A stretch of 64,000 nt of DNA from Lysinibacillus louembei (lineage in GTDB: Bacteria > Bacillota > Bacilli > Bacillales_A > Planococcaceae), in assembly GCF_033880585.1 (NCBI RefSeq), contig NZ_CP137624.1, positions 2,100,001 to 2,164,000 on the forward strand. Reading direction: 5' to 3'. The notes beneath the pieces were generated by a model. The model made no database searches and was not told where the DNA came from. It worked only from the letters and a program-made list of their open reading frames with translations. The translations under genes and the position numbers were made by a program. Below, in pieces: positions 26,764 through 28,597 of this stretch (positions are counted from its first letter, which is position 1; the number at the start of each line of letters is the position of its first letter).

Positions 26764-27459
26764 TTAAGAAATACGGTGACATGACCACACCATCCCTGCG
26801 GAGTTTACCCCACCTAAATTTAATCCAATTGTTAATCCATTTGCTTCGTAGTATAAATCAATCGTATCCCCAGCGTTTAATAATAAATCCCCCGCAAGTG
26901 TGACAGTACCATTTCCTAAAATAGCACGTAAAGTTAGTAAAGTGACAGACACGTTTAATAAAGGAAATAGCCCGCTAATAACATTTGTTGAAGTGTTACG
27001 TCGCATATAAAATGCAGGGTTAATGCCACTACCTAACGATAAACTAATGATAGCAACTGTAGAATAGTTTAACGTTGCTGCAAATGAATAGCGCCCTGTT
27101 ACAGGCACAGTGAATACACCTGTTGTTGGATTGAATCCGCCTGTTGAATAGTATGGAGCTGTGACAATCCAGTTCGTAATAGCTGTTGAGCTATTTGTCA
27201 CTAAGGAGCTTTTAAAAGCAGAAAAGCCTTCTGTGAAAGCAGGACCTGTTGCACCAGTAGGCCCAGTAGCGCCGGTAGCACCTGTTGCACCAGTAGGTCC
27301 GGTAGCGCCGGTAGCACCTGTTGCACCAGTAGGTCCAGTAGCGCCGGTAGCACCTGTTTCGCCAGTAGGTCCAGTAGGTCCCGTATTTCCTTTACAGCCT
27401 AATGCCCGATTACAATTGCAATTTTTAGAAGCGCATTTTTTGCAATTTTGTATGTCCAC
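26764..27459 (-). CDS. Collagen-like spore surface protein (BclA-type)
   Basis: 231 residues. A cysteine-rich leader (Cys at 6, 9, 14, 16 and 22) is followed by 17 Gly-X-Y triplets, mostly GAT, GPT and GPA, and a C-terminal beta domain (about 75-231) of the BclA/C1q-TNF type, with [13 protein letters not shown] and [12 protein letters not shown]. Such trimeric fibres coat the exosporium or tip spore appendages in Bacillus cereus relatives. The usual BclA exosporium leader is missing; the cysteines may instead allow disulfide attachment. The triplet region is built on 36-base DNA repeats (27253-27360). Divergent from the spore lattice/appendage genes, which supports a spore-surface role. Confidence 0.85.
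27253..27360. repeat. Three 36-bp tandem repeats encoding collagen triplets
   Basis: Units begin at 27253, 27289 and 27325, differing at only a few bases. Each encodes twelve residues (four triplets), so gain or loss of a unit keeps the frame and changes fibre length. Confidence 0.85.
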
Positions 27460-27605
27460 CTAAATTCCTCCTCCCTATTATGTCGTTTAAATTAACTTAT
27501 TCGCATGATTTAACAAGGAGGCGGACAAAGAAACTATATTTGTTAAAAAGCTCTTCATAAAATAGATAACGATCGTATGTATAAAATAGGGAGGGGGGAT
27601 AATTA

Positions 27606-28189
27606 ATGGACATGACCAAAATAGAAAAAGGAAAGCCAGTCATACTATTGGATGAAGAGGGTCAGCCTTTAACTGTTATAGGCTTTTCGCCACATTGCCC
27701 ATTTATTTCGCATTTTTTTCACTTATAGCTGTTGCTGAAGACGGTCAGTGTGCCATATTTGAAATCCTTTTTCCATGTTGCTGTAAGAAAAAGCTAATTC
27801 ATACGAAACAAAAAATTATTGTGGATCTAGCTTGCTTTTGCTGTGTAACAATTTGCCAGCCAATTGATGATAACTACGTATGTCATACGACGATACGTGA
27901 GAAAATATGTACGACAATTTCGGGTAGCTCTGATAGAAGTCCAAAATTTATATGGCTAAATAATATGCCTGATGTAGAAAATGTAGTGACAGTGAATGTA
28001 TGTACAACGCAGCCCTTCACGATGAAAATTTATGAACAAGAAGGCATCTTTTCAACTATAGCGGTTGATGAAATATGTAAAGCGTTCACAATGCATAATA
28101 TTTTATTAATAGAAATTCAATCCCATGCTAATAGTACAGTGGAATTGACGATTACATGGAAGAAAATAAAGAACATTGAGCTTGCATAG
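27606..28189 (+). pseudogene. CotZ/ExsY-like spore lattice protein with appendage-like tail, frameshifted
   Basis: The frame from 27606 (strong GGGAGGGGGGA ribosome site) encodes KGKPVILLDEEGQPLTVIGF and reaches a stop at 27726 just after a run of seven T (27713-27719). Adding one T joins it to the frame that continues SLIAVAEDGQCAIFEILFPC and IIVDLACFCCVTICQ. This order (RPFILYTKTG, CAVLR, ITVDLSCFC blocks) matches the CotZ/CotY/ExsY exosporium proteins. The last 90 residues (FIWLNNMPDVENVVTVNV to VELTITWKK) go beyond ExsY and resemble the beta domain of Ena appendage subunits. It may be a true pseudogene, a phase-variable gene or a sequencing error. CATAAAATA at 27556 matches a SigK -10 box. 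Confidence 0.7.
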
Positions 28190-28221
28190 TTCGGTTGACC
28201 GATGTATCAGCATAAATAAAA

Positions 28222-28230
28222 CATACAATA
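28222..28230 (+). promoter_or_regulatory. Possible sigma-K -10 element
   Basis: CATACAATA fits CATANNNTA, the mother-cell SigK -10 consensus, 32 bases before the Ena-like start. A similar CATAAAATA is at 27556-27564 before the CotZ/ExsY-like gene. Clear -35 boxes are not seen. Confidence 0.35.
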
Positions 28231-28261
28231 GCAATGACTTTTAAGCAAAGGAGGGGAAAGC

Positions 28262-28597
28262 ATGGCGAAATTAGGAAGCTGTTGCGGTAATAAAACAAGT
28301 GTACACGACTCTGTCTGTCAAGATTTAACATTAGCTGATGAGACACCAGTAACAGTATGGGAAAATTCTACACCATTTGCGATTAACGGAACAATTTTAG
28401 TGGAAAATGCGAGCTCATCAACTGGCGATGTAACACTATCTGTAACAAGTAATCCCGCAACACCAGCAATTGCAGCAATTGCACCAGGTAATTCTGTATC
28501 AATAACTGCTAATAATATTACTGAAATTCAATTAGCAGGTACAGCTACTGGAGTAGCTAATGTGAAAATTTCTTATTCATTGAACTATAATTTCTAG
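28262..28597 (+). CDS. Endospore appendage (Ena/DUF3992-like) pilin
   Basis: 111 residues. The N-terminal connector has adjacent cysteines (SCCGNKTSVHDSVCQ: CC at about 7-8 and another C at about 19). This is the ZXnCCXmC pattern by which Ena subunits cross-link head to tail. The rest is a beta-rich jelly-roll-like sequence (VTVWENSTPFAINGTILVE, then IAAIAPGNSVSITANNITE) that fits DUF3992. Ena proteins form the extremely stable fibres on spores of the B. cereus group. Neighbours support this: a BclA-like collagen protein and a CotZ/ExsY-like protein, the same company as reported for the L-type Ena3A locus. Good ribosome site AAAGGAGGGG. Confidence 0.75.
   Translation: MAKLGSCCGNKTSVHDSVCQDLTLADETPVTVWENSTPFAINGTILVENASSSTGDVTLSVTSNPATPAIAAIAPGNSVSITANNITEIQLAGTATGVANVKISYSLNYNF

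Follow-up and report, generated by a model that had tools for sequence, protein, structure and literature searches.

Does the L-ENA (ena3-type) spore appendage, described in the literature, as far as we know, from the Bacillus cereus group only, extend beyond that group, and how would such a fibre be anchored where the gene for its anchor is broken across two reading frames? Both questions arise from three adjoining genes at 26,764–28,597 of the window, by which we mean the whole 64,000-nucleotide stretch analysed here, part of a complete 3.96-Mb genome. A sequence-only reading had placed a compact spore-appendage locus here, outside the B. cereus group; that proposal holds up and can be narrowed to the L-ENA type. 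The L-ENA locus of Bacillus paranthracis comprises three genes, ena3A, l-bclA (encoding the tip fibrillum) and exsL (PMC12921279), and the same three kinds of gene adjoin in the window (PMC12921279; PDB 8pdz), encoding a pilin of the Ena3A type, an anchor of the ExsL type and a tip protein that resembles L-BclA. We therefore identify the region, by its genes, as an L-ENA cluster. Its tip gene is divergent and upstream, whereas in B. paranthracis it shares an operon with ena3A. In kind the locus is ordinary, since comparable clusters occur in other Bacilli; the unusual part, overlooked in the first reading, is the conserved frame split of the anchor gene.

The pilin gene (28,262–28,597, forward strand; 111 amino acids) had been described as Ena-like with a CC...C connector, and a search for DUF3992 had been suggested as a check. 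That search is positive: the family, now Pfam PF13157 'Enas', matches 28,262–28,594 at 1.8e-21 over nearly the full length, scoring 76.7 bits where the cut-off is 22. The best solved relative is the L-type subunit Ena3A, 8pdz (phmmer 1.6e-19, residues 1–111 on 1–114), with the S-type subunit 7a02 far behind (2.8e-4; 24 bits versus 73 for Ena3A). A predicted model (mean pLDDT 85) likewise retrieved 8pdz first in Foldseek (9.8e-11), followed by Ena1C, Ena2A and Ena1B. The Ena fold is thus common to this pilin and the S-ENA subunits Ena1A/1B/1C (Foldseek E 3e-7 to 7a02 and 5e-8 to Ena1C, 9t3p), but the sequence match to these is much weaker than that to Ena3A, and the genome holds this one Enas gene above cut-off. 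The connector cysteines are present at positions 7, 8 and 19, placed as in other Ena3A proteins; C7 and C19 are invariant in a 12-sequence alignment and C8 occurs in most of its members. The nine N-terminal residues of the model are of low confidence, which is what a flexible connector would give. Over its whole length the pilin is 41% identical to B. paranthracis Ena3A, which also carries the CC...C connector, and among named records it lies closest to a Metasolibacillus MAG (99%) and M. meyeri (88%), which places the window's genome in Metasolibacillus (Planococcaceae). Sigma-K-like −10 boxes precede both exsL (CATAAAATA, 27,556–27,564) and ena3A (CATACAATA, 28,222–28,230) on the forward strand and are kept in three species, the ena3A copy of one of them (L009) lying about 130 bases farther from its gene; no −35 element was found at the usual distance in either upstream region, and the boxes are suggestive only of sigma-K promoters.

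On the reverse strand, 26,764–27,459 encodes, from a GTG start, a collagen-like protein whose leader is rich in cysteine, much as the first reading had it: Pfam Collagen matches at 5.2e-09, the genome's only Pfam-detectable match to that family, five cysteines fall within residues 1–22, and 18 G-X-Y triplets precede a predicted C1q/TNF-like domain (residues 75–231; Pfam C1q 0.0034–0.007, under cut-off). A cysteine leader, a collagen stalk and a C1q/TNF-like end are all held in common with L-BclA. The leader of L-BclA, however, has a CC motif (PMC11952670) that is absent from the five-cysteine leader here, and the C-terminal domain is not BclA_C, with no match to PF18573 in this protein against 7e-49 and 5e-44 for the tip proteins of two other clusters (L032 and L039). 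Because the collagen is present but neither CC nor BclA_C is, we call the protein L-BclA-like; it may work as L-BclA does while falling outside that family by its leader and C-terminal features. Its role at the tip is supported by gene position, since it is the genome's only collagen protein and its gene sits next to those for pilin and anchor, a grouping kept in three species; the tip gene is conserved in L005, L028 and L029. The earlier suggestion that leader cysteines couple the tip to the appendage by disulfides is only an analogy. In every Metasolibacillus examined, the locus has beside it a gene for a glycosyltransferase with TPR repeats (28,646–29,701, reverse strand), an enzyme that might modify the collagen protein.

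The middle gene, which we assign to exsL, occupies 27,606–28,189 on the forward strand and would encode the anchor of L-ENA to the exosporium, with a CotZ-like N-terminal part and an Ena-like C-terminal domain. In B. paranthracis the CotZ part of ExsL enters ExsY sheets, the C-terminal part is DUF3992, and without exsL the exosporium has no fibres bound to it (PMC12921279). The lattice-type protein of the first reading proves to be CotZ-related, but the open reading frame behind it (27,695–28,189, with a TTG start, the only one listed) is merely the −1-frame 3' part of a split gene whose true start is the ATG at 27,606, in another frame and behind a strong ribosome-binding-site-like sequence (GGGAGGGGGG, 27,589–27,598). 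Alone, the −1 part scores 57.7 bits (1.1e-15) against NCBIfam CotZ_rel, rising to 77.9 when the two frames are joined, below the curated cut-off of 90; the joined product reaches no Pfam cut-off. In other genera, most relatives of the listed frame have Pfam matches to CotZ as well as to Enas, and Foldseek with the modelled −1 part returned Ena2A, Ena1C, Ena1B and Ena3A as best folds. Against a profile built from nine intact ExsL proteins, the 40-residue zero-frame peptide scores 27.4 bits (the best of 2000 shuffles reached 6.4); joining it to the −1 part, which alone scores 88.9, raises the figure to 123.5, and the make-up of an ExsL-type anchor emerges only when the frames are joined. As a reference we took the intact 235-residue ExsL of a plasmid record labelled Klebsiella (L039), whose Ena3A matches 8pdz over its whole length. 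The window's protein is homologous to B. paranthracis ExsL over most of its length, differing in its frame-split gene and in some 20 missing N-terminal residues. One full, ordinary CotZ/ExsY lattice protein is encoded elsewhere in the genome.

How the two frames meet can be read closely. The zero-frame part (27,606–27,728, forward) runs for 40 codons from ATG to a TAG at 27,726–27,728, and the −1-frame part (27,719–28,189, forward), from TCA to its stop, is open in three species. The frames overlap by 70 bases, within which the only in-phase X_XXY_YYZ site is a run of seven Ts, T_TTT_TTT, at 27,713–27,719. In-phase copies of this heptamer are rare elsewhere (3 in 18,029 codons), a rarity that is no independent test, because indels favour homopolymers. 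Across the Metasolibacillus set of four genomes from three species—the window's own, the conspecific L004, L005 (M. meyeri) and L009—the heptamer is identical, with seven Ts in a single phase and the zero-frame stop one or two codons on. Joined across it, the product has 194 residues (193 in L009), and its alignment with the nine intact ExsL proteins needs no gap at the junction SHFF|SLIAV, the break falling on an FF that faces FF or YF in the intact proteins. Those nine aligned genes, all from other genera, are open, and by this comparison the frame break is particular to Metasolibacillus. Homopolymers are a usual site of sequencing and assembly error, and yet the break is identical in four assemblies while the gene sequences of the three species they represent differ by some 20–33%. 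This refutes such an error in practice, and we give it next to no credence.

Nor does the gene look dead. With the same-species pair left out, dN/dS is 0.10–0.33 before the break and 0.15–0.23 after it, and substitutions in the −1 part fall mainly on third positions (37/25/59 and 50/28/77 by codon position; chi-square p 6e-4 and 9e-6), so that both halves are seen to be under purifying selection. Since the break is shared by four assemblies and both halves are conserved as protein, exsL is neither mis-sequenced nor simply dead. A decaying pseudogene, in which a T was lost in the ancestor of the genus and the fibre is now unanchored or the locus on its way out, would accord with two observations. 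The dN/dS is higher for ExsL (0.15–0.23) than for the pilin (0.07–0.10), a faster pace of change that also counts against recoding. In a fourth Metasolibacillus species (G065), moreover, the locus is gone: a deletion took out ena3A and exsL with part of each flanking gene, and what is left of the glycosyltransferase gene, its 5' half, is now joined to the 3' part of bclA (L045; G065:C4:116000-128000, 6276–7298). Against decay, the −1 part has kept its frame, its low dN/dS and its surplus of third-position changes across synonymous distances of some 0.9 to 2, and the same number of random substitutions would leave it free of stops in only 1.4% and 0.6% of cases. We consider decay improbable.

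Selection on both halves could also arise if the tract were a switch, alternating by slipped-strand mispairing between seven Ts (off) and eight (on), with fibres anchored in part of the population only: exsL is exactly one T short of an open gene, and selection could act in the on state. The tract nevertheless has seven Ts in four of four genomes, and an off state in every genome sampled is hard to expect if the on state is common; seven Ts is also short for a phase-variable tract. Phase variation of this kind is, in our view, unlikely, though slightly less so than decay. We think it about as doubtful as decay that the gene has been split in earnest, the 40-residue peptide and the remainder acting as two cooperating proteins or the remainder acting alone. 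The −1 frame does have a candidate start, TTG in the window (27,695) and ATG in M. meyeri, but the codon at that place is CTG in L009, no Shine–Dalgarno sequence precedes it in any of the three species, no conserved −1-frame start follows the zero-frame stop, and the zero-frame piece covers just a portion of the CotZ-like part and makes no domain by itself. In the absence of a conserved start and Shine–Dalgarno sequence, independent initiation of the −1 frame was rejected.

The explanation we favour, and judge somewhat likelier than not, is an L-ENA locus whose full-length ExsL would be made by a −1 slip at the seven Ts, the roles of its proteins being carried over from B. paranthracis. The 28,262–28,597 product would polymerise into the fibre and the collagen-like protein would form its tip fibrillum; at the other end, the CotZ-like part of ExsL would lodge in the CotZ/ExsY lattice at the spore surface while the Ena-like part grips the base of the fibre. 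Ribosomes slipping by −1 on T_TTT_TTT would yield the 194-residue anchor, and the majority that did not shift would stop after 40 codons, leaving the anchor scarce relative to the pilin; a small output would suit a protein of which each fibre requires few copies. Slippage of RNA polymerase on the same tract, a less likely alternative to the ribosome, would give the same product. For the stricter proposition—that in Metasolibacillus the anchor is made only through conserved −1 recoding at a bare T_TTT_TTT, which sets a low anchor-to-pilin ratio—we regard the chances as evenly balanced.

Both recoding and its low efficiency are what we infer from these features, and the features do not all point one way. 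The site shares with bacterial −1 recoding in dnaX and the IS1/IS3 transposase genes an in-phase X_XXY_YYZ heptamer, overlapping frames and a close zero-frame stop (PMC4066793, PMC5009743). Unlike those cases, it is a T_TTT_TTT for which no stimulator was found, in a structural gene of the spore, and its product is a predicted one. The sequence shows no upstream Shine–Dalgarno stimulator near the seven Ts, and a search there for a conserved stem-loop found none, the consensus fold being weak (−5.5 kcal/mol, one compensatory pair). In Escherichia coli, U_UUU_UUU shifts at more than 0.10% without stimulators (PMC4066793) but is far weaker than A_AAA_AAG (PMC5009743), which counts against recoding, as does the fact that the frame-split gene is known from only three species. 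If recoding is true, the frequency of ribosomal slips at a single run of seven Ts would determine how many anchored fibres each spore bears. Annotation pipelines will report the anchor gene as broken or overlook where it starts. To our knowledge, recoding has not been reported before in a structural gene of the spore surface.

Beyond Metasolibacillus, similar L-ENA clusters occur in other genera of Planococcaceae and of Bacilli, extending the known range of these fibres to both and allowing their function to be studied in species outside the B. cereus group. Among 261 family genomes, 12 were found to have Ena3A-like pilins, with only a weak resemblance in one case (G021), and nine to have ExsL. 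A search of a sample of the class returned ExsL in five of 398 genomes, the window's own included, although one of the five (G066) is accounted for by a different CotZ-like protein; its gene (141 amino acids), tried as a second broken exsL, was rejected for want of an Ena part.

Several neighbouring observations concern other arrangements of these genes. Two adjacent DUF4183 matches, of the F-ENA type, lie elsewhere in the window's genome (L058 and L059, G000:C1:3692491-3693056), which may give its spores another type of fibre in addition. In another genome of the family (L036, 3,769–5,635), two tandem Ena3A-like genes stand beside a gene for a 290-residue cysteine-rich protein. The Klebsiella-labelled record that supplied our reference ExsL (CP079755.1, 9,273–11,607) is a 361-kb plasmid, recorded as Klebsiella grimontii pNY3A, with its L-ENA cluster near a Spo0E-family gene; the host label is most likely wrong and the plasmid one of Bacillus. 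On plasmids of Priestia and Peribacillus (L040, 611–2,602; L041, 3,766–5,345), Ena3A-like genes adjoin genes for short tip-like proteins that have a cysteine leader and a BclA-like C-terminal sequence and are devoid of a collagen stalk.
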